33,498 nucleotides of DNA from a virus. Under the pieces are notes generated by a model, which ran no database searches, had not been told where the DNA came from, and was given only the letters and a program-made list of their open reading frames with translations. Positions 13,523-17,961 of the stretch are shown here, piece after piece. Position 1 is the stretch's first letter. Every line of letters begins with the position of its first letter. The stretch covers positions 1 through 33,498 of IMG/VR virus record IMGVR_UViG_3300025102_000131; one strand, given 5' to 3'. A program made the translations under genes and the position numbers.

Positions 13523-13622
13523 TTGGATTCTATATATTATTGCAGGCATATTTGGTTTGGTTGCAATAGGCGGTTTGATTAGCATATTAGCAGCAATATA
13601 TATTTTAAGAGAGTTAGATTAA
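13515..13622 (+). CDS. Small single-TM protein (35 aa)
   Basis: Nearly the entire peptide is one membrane helix (WILYIIAGIFGLVAIGG and on through LAAIYIL), ending in RELD. It overlaps the gene before it, and its stop overlaps the methylase ATG (TAATG), which supports a real coupled gene. The function is unknown. Confidence 0.5.
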   Translation: MVDWILYIIAGIFGLVAIGGLISILAAIYILRELD

Positions 13623-14152
13623 TGCAGATTCCATTTCCAAACAAAAAATACAACATAATTTATGCTGACCCAGCTTGGGATGTTATGAGAGGTTGTGATT
13701 GGGGTTCAGGTGGCAAAACGAAGCCTTTGTCATATCCAACTATGACAATAGATGAAATTAAAAATTTACCAGTTAATGATATTGCTGATAAAAATTGCAA
13801 ATTATATCTATGGACAATAAATAAATATTTAAAAGAATCATTTGACGTTATAGAAGCATGGGGTTTTAAATATTCTACTACCCTTGTATGGGTAAAAAAG
13901 CCTAGAGGCTTAGGCTTGGGTGGTACTTATACTCCTAATGTAGAATATTTACTACTTGCCAGTAAGGGCAAACAAGATGCAATAAAAAAATATGACACTT
14001 GTTGGTGGGAGTTAGCAAGAAGCTACCATAGCAAAAAGCCTGATTTTTTTAGAGACATGATAAGAAATACATACAACAAAGATGAAAAAGCTATTGAGTT
14101 ATTTGCTAGACAAACTTTTAATGGTTGGGATAGCTGGGGTAATGAGGTTTAA
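13622..14152 (+). CDS. MT-A70-family N6-adenine DNA methyltransferase (176 aa)
   Basis: The catalytic motif is D16-P17-A18-W19 in NIIYADPAWD, a DPPW variant. It is followed by the MT-A70 signature region with YPTMTIDEIKNLPV, LYLWTINKYL, FKYSTTLVWVKK and PNVEYLLLASKG. These enzymes transfer a methyl group from S-adenosylmethionine to adenine N6. In a phage this may protect against host restriction or mark phage DNA. No partner restriction enzyme is obvious, although a PD-(D/E)XK protein follows directly. The length is normal and the start is coupled to the upstream stop. Confidence 0.87.
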   Translation: MQIPFPNKKYNIIYADPAWDVMRGCDWGSGGKTKPLSYPTMTIDEIKNLPVNDIADKNCKLYLWTINKYLKESFDVIEAWGFKYSTTLVWVKKPRGLGLGGTYTPNVEYLLLASKGKQDAIKKYDTCWWELARSYHSKKPDFFRDMIRNTYNKDEKAIELFARQTFNGWDSWGNEV

Positions 14153-14767: not shown

Positions 14768-15391
14768 ATGGATATATTAGGTGGAATGTCTAATTCCAGC
14801 AATGAGAGTCAGCAAGTTTATCTTGCTTTCAAAACATCACATCAGCAATTTTTTGCTAATGGTGAGACACCAGTAGAGTTTCAATATCTACAGCTTGACC
14901 CTTCAACATTCAAATCAGGATGGGGAAGATATACAAAAGCTGATGGGTTTGAATATCACTGGGATGATAAATTTGGTGTAGTAGCACCTAAACCAGCAGA
15001 TGACTATAAAAGAGCATTTAGTGCTTGGGTCTTTCCACAAGGAGCTCAACATGCTTTTTTATGGCAGAGATTTACATTTGCTGAATCAAGTGCATTTAAC
15101 ACAATACTAGGTAGCTTTTGGAATCAAATGGATTCAAGTTCAGCTAACTTACCTGTTGTTAAGTTTGAAGGCTCTAAACCTATTCAAGTAGGTATGGGTA
15201 ATTCATCAGAGCTATCATTTAGCTTTGCTAAGTTTGCACCTAGAACTGCTGAGTTTGTGATACCTAGTTGGTATACAGAACAAGAAGCACCAGTAGATGA
15301 CACATTCAAAGACCCCAATGCTGGTCTTGCTGACAAGGTTCAGGAGATGATTGATAAGAATGAATTATCTGATGATGATATCCCATTCTGA
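14768..15391 (+). CDS. SSB-like single-stranded DNA-binding protein (207 aa)
   Basis: The last residues, LSDDDIPF, reproduce the acidic tip that bacterial SSB proteins use to recruit partner enzymes. The tip follows a disordered acidic linker, as in SSB. The body (residues 15-165) is rich in aromatic residues and beta strands (SQQVYLAFKTSHQQFF, HAFLWQRFTFAESSAF) but is not an obvious classical SSB OB fold. It sits directly before the primase-helicase, with its stop overlapping that start, which fits a replication role. A strong ribosome site (TAGGAGAG) implies high expression. The function is inferred from tail and context. Confidence 0.68.
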   Translation: MDILGGMSNSSNESQQVYLAFKTSHQQFFANGETPVEFQYLQLDPSTFKSGWGRYTKADGFEYHWDDKFGVVAPKPADDYKRAFSAWVFPQGAQHAFLWQRFTFAESSAFNTILGSFWNQMDSSSANLPVVKFEGSKPIQVGMGNSSELSFSFAKFAPRTAEFVIPSWYTEQEAPVDDTFKDPNAGLADKVQEMIDKNELSDDDIPF

Positions 15392-17334
15392 TGCAGTCAG
15401 TTGATTGGCAAAGAATAGCACCTGAAGTTGCAAAGCAATTATTAGGTGAACCTACTAGTACCTCTTCTAAAGAATATAGATGGGGTACTCATGGGTCTTT
15501 GACTCTTAATTTAGAGTCAGCCACTTGGTATAACTTTGAAGATGATACTGGTGGTGGAATAATAGATTTAATAAAACATCTAAATCAAGATGTTAATACA
15601 GTTTTAAAACAGTTTGGTTATGACTTAGCATTACATTCAAATGACTCCTTAATCAGTGGCTTTGCTCCCCCTAAAAGCAAAGCTACAAGTAATGCTAGGT
15701 CATTCTCTAAAGTACAAATGAGGGAGCTTCATTCTCAAGCAATAGTTAAAGTGCAATATGCAAAAAACTTTTGGGTGATGAGGTTTCCTGATGGTCATTT
15801 TATTAAACAAAAATATGCACCTTTCAGCTTAAATGATGATGGTTCTTGGTCTATGAAGCGACCTGAAGGCTCTCTTCCTATCTATTACACTGATAGGGCT
15901 AAGGATAAACCTATTATTATAAATGAAGGTGAGAAGGCTCTAAGAGGTTGTGAAGAGATTTATGATGGTGATTCTTGTACTTGGCATGGTGGGGTTAATA
16001 GTTGGGAAAAGGCAGATTGGAGTCCTATATTTGGTAGAGATGTTTGGGTATTTCCTGATAACGATGAAGCAGGAATTAAATGTGCTAATGAAATAGGCAC
16101 TATGTTAAGAAAAAATGGTTGTAAGGTTAAGGTAGCTCAACCCCCTGAATCATTTAATGAAAAAGATGATTTGTATGATGCTTTTATAAGGGGTGATTTT
16201 AAGGAGTCTAAAGATTTAGAAGATTACATTATTGGTTGTGTAGAAAAGAAACCTAAAGGTATGGTTACTTTTACAAGAGCTGATGAGGTATTAAGACAGG
16301 TAGATAATCCTGATTGGCTGATAAAAGATGTTGTAGAGAAAGAATCACTGATGTGTATCTTTGGTAAACCTAAAAGTGGTAAGTCATTTATTGCTATAGC
16401 TATGGCTACTGCTATTGCTAAGGGTGAAAGATTTTATGGCAATGAGTCATTCAGCAAACCAGTTATGTATGTATGTGGTGAAGGTCAAAGAGGTGTTAAA
16501 AGAAGATTAGCAGCTTGGCAACAGGGTATGTTTGATTTAACTGGCGTACCTTTATATCTATCAGATAGAGCTGTTAGAGTTAATGACCCTGATGATTTTA
16601 AGATGCTAGAGCTAGAGATAGAAGCATTGACTCAACAAGTAGGTGAAATAGGAATGATAGTCATTGATACATTCCAGCGTAACTTTGTGGGTAACGAGAA
16701 CAGTGCAGAAGATGTGGGTAACTTTATTAATAAATTAGATGGACTTATATCACATTATAAGTGTTGTGTATGTTTGGTTCACCATACTGGTCATGGCAAT
16801 TCAGATAGAGGTAGAGGTTCAAGCGTAATGGGTGCTTCTTTAGATTATGAATTTAAGGTAGATAGAGAAGATAAGGCTGTTGGTGATAACCTTGAAGAAC
16901 AAATGTTTGTATCTTTTGAGCAGACATTAAATAAAGATGGTCAGGGAATGTCTGAGAAGTCTTTTGTGTTTAAAGAGGTTGAGATTATTGGTGAGGGATT
17001 AAATTTAACATCAGGATTCTTAGAAGAGACTAATATTGACTTTAAAACTAAGAAATCAGATAAATTACCGCAAATGCAAGATAGAACATTAACCGCATTA
17101 GAAACTGTAGCTTATATTAAAGATAATCAGAATCCTCAAGACCAATTCTTAATGCCAAATGATTTAGAGGGATTTGTTAAAAACAAAGCTGGAGATAATA
17201 TAGATGCTAATAATATTGGCAAACATTTAAATGCTTTAAAAGATAAAGGACAGGTATATAAGCATGAAAAGTTTGGATGGCAACATATTAAATTTAAGAA
17301 TGTGCAACCAAATTTGGAGGAAAAGTTTGATTAA
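15391..17334 (+). CDS. Primase-helicase with Toprim and RepA-like ATPase domains (647 aa)
   Basis: It is the main replication enzyme of the phage. The N-terminal 80 residues resemble a phage primase-associated domain without zinc cysteines. The Toprim region carries E179 in INEGEKA and D223-N-D225 in FPDNDEAG. The ATPase has Walker A GKPKSGKS (325-332), Walker B MIVIDTF with D426, and HHTGH (464-468), as in RepA/AAA_25 hexameric helicases. The last 80 residues look like a winged helix (NNIGKHLNALKDKGQVY) that may bind DNA. It starts within the SSB-like stop. An iteron-like repeat cluster, possibly the origin, follows immediately. No DNA polymerase is seen, so host polymerase is probably recruited. 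Confidence 0.85.
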   Translation: MQSVDWQRIAPEVAKQLLGEPTSTSSKEYRWGTHGSLTLNLESATWYNFEDDTGGGIIDLIKHLNQDVNTVLKQFGYDLALHSNDSLISGFAPPKSKATSNARSFSKVQMRELHSQAIVKVQYAKNFWVMRFPDGHFIKQKYAPFSLNDDGSWSMKRPEGSLPIYYTDRAKDKPIIINEGEKALRGCEEIYDGDSCTWHGGVNSWEKADWSPIFGRDVWVFPDNDEAGIKCANEIGTMLRKNGCKVKVAQPPESFNEKDDLYDAFIRGDFKESKDLEDYIIGCVEKKPKGMVTFTRADEVLRQVDNPDWLIKDVVEKESLMCIFGKPKSGKSFIAIAMATAIAKGERFYGNESFSKPVMYVCGEGQRGVKRRLAAWQQGMFDLTGVPLYLSDRAVRVNDPDDFKMLELEIEALTQQVGEIGMIVIDTFQRNFVGNENSAEDVGNFINKLDGLISHYKCCVCLVHHTGHGNSDRGRGSSVMGASLDYEFKVDREDKAVGDNLEEQMFVSFEQTLNKDGQGMSEKSFVFKEVEIIGEGLNLTSGFLEETNIDFKTKKSDKLPQMQDRTLTALETVAYIKDNQNPQDQFLMPNDLEGFVKNKAGDNIDANNIGKHLNALKDKGQVYKHEKFGWQHIKFKNVQPNLEEKFD

Positions 17335-17336
17335 GA

Positions 17337-17447
17337 AGGAAGTTGGTAGGAAGTTTGGTAGGAAGTTTTGAAGGAAGTTTTAGCTAAATATGAACAATTA
17401 GGTCGGAAGGAAGGGAAGGAAGTATGTAATACTTCCCTTACTTCCTA
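17337..17447 (+). repeat. AGGAAGTT iteron cluster with hairpin, candidate replication origin
   Basis: Four direct AGGAAGTT copies lie at 17337, 17348, 17360 and 17372, spaced by 11-12 bp (one helical turn). Further AGGAAG copies are at 17408 and 17417. Then GGAAGTAT (17418-17425) pairs with ATACTTCC (17429-17436) across the loop GTA, and an inverted TACTTCCT lies at 17439. No gene covers the stretch. Iterons next to a replicative helicase gene are a common origin design. Confidence 0.5.
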
Positions 17448-17466
17448 CTAAATCATCAGGAAGGAC

Positions 17467-17961
17467 ATGAAAACATACTTAAATGAATCTTTAAAAGATA
17501 AATTAAAAGAATTAAGACTTTATGAAGTCGATACTCGTATTAAGTGGGGTAATCGTAAACGAATCTTCAAGATGGTTGGTGTACAGTTTGAGATTAAGTT
17601 TTGTAGAGCAGAACAAATGTTAAAAGATTCTTTGCAAAAAGATGCACCTAGAAAACAAGTGCAAATGGTTGAAATGATGTTAAGAGCTTATGAGCAGTTA
17701 AATATTAAATGTGAATCTAGTGGTTATATACAAATACAACCAAATGCTAAGTGTTTTAATTTTGATAATAAAACAGCACTGGTTTGTGATACTGATTCAG
17801 AGAAACCTGTATTGGAGAAAATACACAAAGATGAGAAGGATATAATGATATTTAGCATAGAAGAATTATTTAGATGTATTCCTAAAGATTTTATAAGAGC
17901 AAAAGAACTGCTAAGTAAATTAGATAAATCAGTAAATATTAAGAGAGTTGATTATGTCTAA
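17467..17961 (+). CDS. Hypothetical protein (164 aa)
   Basis: A strong ribosome site (AGGAAGG, 17458-17464) precedes the ATG; that site also resembles the iterons upstream. The protein is mixed: a basic N-terminal half (DTRIKWGNRKRIFKMVG and helices around APRKQVQMVEMML), then a beta-rich middle (SGYIQIQPNAKCFNFDN) and a helical end (IEELFRCIPKDFIRAKELL). No family is recognised. Its position after the candidate origin suggests a role in replication, without direct evidence. Confidence 0.68.
   Translation: MKTYLNESLKDKLKELRLYEVDTRIKWGNRKRIFKMVGVQFEIKFCRAEQMLKDSLQKDAPRKQVQMVEMMLRAYEQLNIKCESSGYIQIQPNAKCFNFDNKTALVCDTDSEKPVLEKIHKDEKDIMIFSIEELFRCIPKDFIRAKELLSKLDKSVNIKRVDYV

Follow-up and report, generated by a model that had tools for sequence, protein, structure and literature searches.

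The oriV of RSF1010 combines iterons with an A+T-rich stretch and hairpin priming sites, and the Rep helicases of SaPI/PICI satellite islands are of the SF3/D5 type. In these islands, the C-terminal domain of the helicase recognizes an iteron origin located 3' of the initiator gene (Ubeda et al. 2007, as cited in PMC7581432; PMC6092414). In the PLE satellites of Vibrio cholerae, the DNA-binding domain of the initiator and the origin are exchanged as a module, and an origin-directed nuclease has been proposed to select for this (PMC8263062). Most marine phage replication origins are unmapped. Here, we analyzed a repeat array behind the primase-helicase gene of a viral contig of 33,498 bases, hereafter the window, meaning the whole stretch of DNA that was studied. 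The array and the adjacent gene are very probably a phage replication origin with its reader encoded next door. More specifically, we assign a probability of about 0.82 to the reading that positions 17337–17446 are the cis element where phage DNA replication starts and that the reader of its iterons is the winged helix of the helicase itself. A first-pass annotation had proposed a candidate origin at this place, which our results support; that the array is an origin, as opposed to another site of the same domain, is what we infer.

The source record is that of an uncultivated virus with a G+C content of 28–39% (1-kb windows) and almost every gene on the plus strand, and it looks like a tailed phage of ~33 kb. 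The terminases nearest to its own, at about 49% identity, belong to Roseobacter phages of the CRP-822 family, which has been described as probably strictly lytic (PMC12629253). The last 838 bases of the contig (32661–33498) share about 81% identity with the first 824 (1–824), and the contig seems either to overrun the full genome circle or to join two strains. Scanning genome contigs for a host returned a sole match, one flavobacterial MAG contig. GC skew rose monotonically along the whole contig with no turning point or signal at 17.3 kb, and is uninformative for the origin. Upstream of the helicase, the gene at 14768–15391 had no family match and occupies the position of the annotated ssDNA-binding protein in CRP phages. 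An MT-A70 methyltransferase gene lies at 13622–14152, upstream of the window's replication genes.

The first-pass annotation had described a 132-bp non-coding gap behind the primase-helicase holding four direct repeats at 11–12 bp, further AGGAAG copies, a perfect 8-bp inverted repeat with a 3-base loop, and an inverted copy of the repeat, all of which we recovered (Table 1). It had missed a spacer of 83% A+T that splits the copies of this ~110-bp element into a first set (17337–17379) and a second (17405–17446). The four copies of AGGAAGTT start 11, 12, and 12 bp apart, and only one further copy occurs elsewhere in the 33.5 kb; the extra AGGAAG copies are at 17408 and 17417. Periodicity at 12 bp over the first 52 nt of the gap was 0.70, a value reached by 0 of 500 shuffles. 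AGGAAGT occurs 14 times in the window versus 5.0 expected (sd 2.24; 14 reached by 0 of 100 shuffles), with 6 of the 14 copies falling inside the 110 bp. The perfect stem, GGAAGTAT-gta-ATACTTCC at 17418–17436, extends to 18-nt arms at 83% (17408–17425 / 17429–17446), and the inverted TACTTCCT lies at 17439–17446. Folded as single-stranded DNA, the array segment reached -12.4 kcal/mol (z = -4.4), and none of 200 shuffles was equally stable. An Rfam search of 17250–17500 returned nothing above the gathering score and only sub-threshold matches at chance level.

Table 1. Features of the array and its neighboring genes in the 33,498-base window.
Feature	Position	Strand	Description or basis
Primase-helicase, 647 aa	15391..17334	+	TOPRIM-like N-terminal half; RecA-like AAA_25 / RepA-type core (about 291-545); C-terminal winged helix
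Winged-helix domain, residues 561-635, proposed iteron reader	17071..17295	+	AlphaFold domain model, structure matches, A/B fixed differences
Non-coding gap	17335-17466		Between stop TAA 17332-17334 (primase-helicase) and ATG 17467 (164-aa gene)
Iteron 1, AGGAAGTT	17337..17344	+	Sequence
Iteron 2, AGGAAGTT	17348..17355	+	Sequence
Iteron 3, AGGAAGTT	17360..17367	+	Sequence
Iteron 4, AGGAAGTT	17372..17379	+	Sequence
A+T-rich spacer TTTAGCTAAATATGAACAATTAG, candidate melting region	about 17379-17401	+	Sequence; recurs at same place in other array types
Second iteron set, dense direct copies GGAAGGAAGGGAAGGAAGTAT, 5' hairpin arm	17405..17425	+	Sequence, fold
Hairpin loop GTA	17426..17428	+	Sequence
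Inverted copies ATACTTCCCTTACTTCCT, 3' hairpin arm	17429..17446	-	Sequence, fold
164-aa gene	17467..17961	+	Always 3' of array in this phage group; no covariation with array type

The primase-helicase matched Pfam AAA_25 (E = 1.9e-34) and, weakly, Toprim_2, and its PHROG matches were DNA primase/helicase families. Neither an SF3/D5-type helicase family nor RepA_N was among its Pfam matches at E 0.001. The best alignment of the AlphaFold model of the helicase core was to the RSF1010 RepA helicase (1olo_A; Z 23.4, rmsd 3.0, 232 residues). Modeled alone, the C-terminal domain had a pLDDT of about 90 over model residues 20–100 and resembled the winged-helix DNA-binding proteins MntR, LexA, Fur/Nur, and Z-alpha in the PDB (Z about 8–9). 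Foldseek searches with this model returned no E below 0.001, and because these E-values are weak the assignment of a winged-helix fold rests on Z about 8–9 against many proteins.

Relatives were taken as loci with this helicase from protein scans of viral contigs plus a genome scan. An array stood in front of the 164-aa gene at all 100 viral loci with a complete gap, presence in relatives being the point on which the first-pass annotation had let its proposal depend; at locus L139 the array is visible in the sequence even though automatic gap-cutting misplaced it. Across 100 contigs the repeat unit has been replaced completely and in concert (AGGAAGTT, AGGGAATT, TTTGGTTTTGG, TTTGGGTGT, GTGGGGTAAA, TTAGGTGT, GAGTGTGTG) while the architecture was kept. 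The purine-rich unit of the window is one of at least ten found at this position among relatives, which we typed as A (AGGAAGTTT), A' (CGGAAGTGT), A'' (AGGGAAGTTT), B (CAGGGAATTT), C (TTTGGTTTTGG), C2 (TTGGTTTTTGG), C3 (GGATTGGTTTTGG), D (TTTGGGTGT), D2 (GTGGGGTAAA), D3 (TTAGGTGT), and E (GAGTGTGTG). Iteron spacing across types is usually 10–13 bp, being less clear in D3 and E, and the A+T-rich spacer and hairpin persist. At eight loci (L086, L090, L094, L097, L099, L103, L105, and L126), methyltransferase-type genes of 0.5–1.1 kb, labeled MT-A70 DNA methyltransferases from recurring sequence motifs and not from a family search, separate the helicase from the array. The array is therefore a discrete element, because it stays intact despite this separation. 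These insertions also rule out the array as a coding tail of the helicase.

Among more distant RepA-type helicases surveyed by eye, repeat arrays lie directly 3' of the helicase gene in CGphi29, 1N2-2, EBPR siphovirus 5, P8625, Wolbachia phage WO, and BcepGomr, with a different unit in each. No clear array was seen by eye at this position in GB2A, Mae-JY30, TPA2, Hashim76, ct76p945, SETP13, phi673, Vibrio phage 1247, or Tlacuache. Statistical scoring (6-mer permutation) in this survey was confined to CGphi29 and 1N2-2.

The iterons and the hairpin change together. Sharing of 6-mers between the iterons and the 3' hairpin arm was 0.21 within a locus versus 0.0145 between types, and the observed value was reached in 0 of 20,000 permutations over 13 types, which include three Roseobacter phages, Salicola phage CGphi29, and Idiomarinaceae phage 1N2-2. 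Apex stems of 6–9 bp and loops of 3–5 nt were kept while their sequences differed between types. All 11 distinct family apexes, which are not fully independent of one another, have TA at the loop, as compared to 41% of 257 control hairpins. The TA-containing loops are GTA, TTTA, TATA, TCT-A, and CCTATGG. It is possible that this TA is a priming trinucleotide or a cruciform nucleation point.

Protein regions differed in how closely they track the array. Across 88 loci, array distance correlated with the distance of the C-terminus (r = 0.87) and the ATPase (0.86), as opposed to 0.34 for the primase and 0.26 for the next gene, and partial permutation gave p = 0.002 both for the C-terminus and for the ATPase. 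Placing the four major types on trees required 3 changes, the minimum, for the C-terminus and the ATPase versus 14 for the next gene and 11 for the primase, which therefore points to repeated exchange of a cassette of helicase core, C-terminus, and array between conserved flanks. For example, loci L015 and L131 have next genes that are 98% identical, primases 77%, ATPases 36%, and C-termini 28%, and their arrays differ; L101 and L104 have similar arrays and next genes that are 37% identical.

Across the major types, the ATPase core and the winged helix follow the array equally closely, and only two comparisons single out the C-terminus. Fixed differences between types A and B numbered 0 of 290 positions in the primase, 1 of 255 in the ATPase, 14 of 75 in the winged helix, and 3 of 164 in the next gene. 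The A/B substitutions include I604K, G610K, H612M, and A615K in the presumed recognition helix and W630Y, H632S, and K634E in the wing. The other comparison involves CRP-821 and CRP-823, cultured Roseobacter phages both isolated on strain FZCC0197. Their helicases are 98% identical over the 617 residues before the C-terminus and 71% within it, their next genes are 90% identical, and their iterons are TTTATACA and TTTGTAGT, respectively. Conversely, CRP-811 and CRP-823 are 90% identical before the C-terminus and 98% within it, and share an iteron. The CRP comparison is an independent replicate and amounts to a naturally occurring domain swap that follows the repeat.

These results, along with the predicted fold, favor the winged helix as binder, as the first-pass annotation had suggested. 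The adjacency of the helicase 3' end to the array could by itself produce linkage, although this account is weakened because the equally close next gene is unlinked and because the link survives the methyltransferase-type insertions. The iterons and the winged helix are best explained as a putative modular specificity cassette.

The 164-aa protein had no Pfam or PHROG match, and in L064, L076, and L100 it is fused into a protein of 362–365 aa. A control search for homologues lacking the helicase found none; all those with enough upstream sequence have both helicase and array. In types C and C2 (e.g., L053, L086, and L062), the gene starts with ATGACCAAACC or ATGAACCAACC (MTKP.. or MNQP..), such that its first codons are an inverted copy of the iteron unit.

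We considered whether the array might be bound by the helicase winged helix and yet mainly control expression, through autoregulation or as a roadblock or attenuator before the next gene. Its location between two co-directional genes, its hairpin, and the commonness of winged-helix domains in repressors would all fit. However, the array is downstream rather than upstream of the gene for its proposed binder, that binder is fused to a helicase and a primase, no T-run follows the hairpin in the window sequence, and the layout equals that of PICI origins, for which replication was shown experimentally (PMC6092414). We regard expression control as unlikely. The first-pass annotation had raised translation control as an alternative given the likeness of the repeat to a ribosome site, and AGGAAGG does sit just upstream of ATG 17467. 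Most types have units unlike a Shine-Dalgarno site, including C (TTTGGTTTTGG), D (TTTGGGTGT), and E (GAGTGTGTG), while number, spacing, and hairpin persist, and the next gene hardly differs between types (98% identity for L015/L131). Ribosome-site-like or translation-control repeats are thus refuted as a general explanation, and we find them barely credible here.

We consider it very improbable that the binder of the array is instead the 164-aa product or some host factor. A neighbor had been offered by the first-pass annotation as the other candidate binder, and the 164-aa gene is invariably 3' of the array and has no known function, but its sequence fails to follow the array (r = 0.26, with 14 state changes versus 3 on the C-terminus tree). 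A host factor would leave the covariation with a phage protein domain unexplained, and two iteron types occur in CRP-821 and CRP-823 on the one host strain. A partition or packaging site (centromere-like or cos/pac) seems similarly far-fetched. Such sites can also have iteron-plus-hairpin layouts, but the array covaries with a helicase, no partition gene was recognized near it, and the terminase genes are ~3 kb away, from 20.0 kb, beyond about eight small genes.

In the preferred reading of the array as an origin, several primase-helicase molecules would line up along one face of the DNA, bound to the iterons by their winged helices, and would thereby gather the hexameric RepA-type helicase. 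The A+T-rich spacer would open after this gathering, and the fused primase may land or prime on single-stranded DNA presented by the hairpin of the second set. Phages would then exchange the helicase core, winged helix, and array as one cassette that sets replication specificity, while retaining their own flanking genes.

If so, origins could be predicted by a simple rule: a RepA-type primase-helicase followed by helical-phase iterons and a hairpin of the same unit, despite the hypervariability of that unit. With at least ten naturally matched domain/iteron pairs available, a recognition code for a winged helix can be tested, and the isolates CRP-821 and CRP-823, from one host strain, make the swap directly testable. 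Why phages should exchange origin specificity time and again is a further question that the results raise. We tentatively suggest, at somewhat less than even odds, that tailed phages with RepA-type primase-helicases hold many specificity groups, with the core/winged-helix/array cassette swapped repeatedly and phages of the same host using mutually non-recognized origins. The drivers would be competition during co-infection, satellites, or origin-directed nucleases, as with plasmid incompatibility groups or PLEs escaping Odn. Our literature search, with most subscription journals outside its reach, found no description of iterons with RepA-like phage helicases, and the words 'iteron' and 'repeat' do not occur in the main text of the paper on the CRP-822 family (PMC12629253).

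The SaPI/PICI pri-rep-ori arrangement resembles this locus in having short iterons right behind the gene for the initiator helicase, two iteron sets that flank an A+T-rich stretch, and a primase that is sometimes fused to the initiator, as in the primase-helicase fusion here. The helicase C-terminal domain recognizes the origin in those islands; a winged-helix reader is proposed here from covariation and fold. By analogy, the iteron-gathering logic would be the one established for SaPI/PICI origins (PMC7581432, PMC6092414). The present locus differs from the SaPI/PICI one in its RSF1010 RepA / AAA_25 type of helicase, in the inverted copies with which the second set builds a hairpin, and in the concerted replacement of the unit between close relatives. 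Its carrier also looks like a tailed phage of some 33 kb and not like a satellite island. At the putative origin of SCCmec Cch2 (PMC7581432), direct repeats 3' of the operon are likewise bound by a helicase C-terminal domain, and inverted repeats are also present, but the helicase is of another type and the primase-polymerase proteins are separate.

The PLE RepA-ori (PMC8263062, PMC7145576) is similar in that the DNA-binding domain of the initiator varies together with the origin, the two being swapped as a module between conserved flanks. Its RepA_N initiators are without helicase or primase and its iterons are about 30 bp, whereas the proposed reader here is the C-terminal winged helix of a primase-helicase. 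The plasmid pRN1 (PMC4234260) encodes a primase-helicase with a C-terminal winged helix, ORF904, with the origin just downstream and a stem-loop that is kept while its sequence is not; in contrast, it has no iterons and pairs an archaeo-eukaryotic primase with an SF3 helicase. RSF1010 shares the RepA-type hexameric helicase fold (Z 23.4), from which a hexamer is predicted here, and its oriV is like the array in its iterons, A+T-rich stretch, and hairpin. It uses three proteins, RepA, RepB', and RepC, with RepC reading 20-bp iterons, whereas here a single polypeptide would be primase, helicase, and reader, and the units recur every 10–12 bp and covary with a helicase-fused domain. Because it combines a RepA-type helicase, a hairpin made of the iteron unit, and concerted turnover of this extent, the origin proposed here differs from the known kind.
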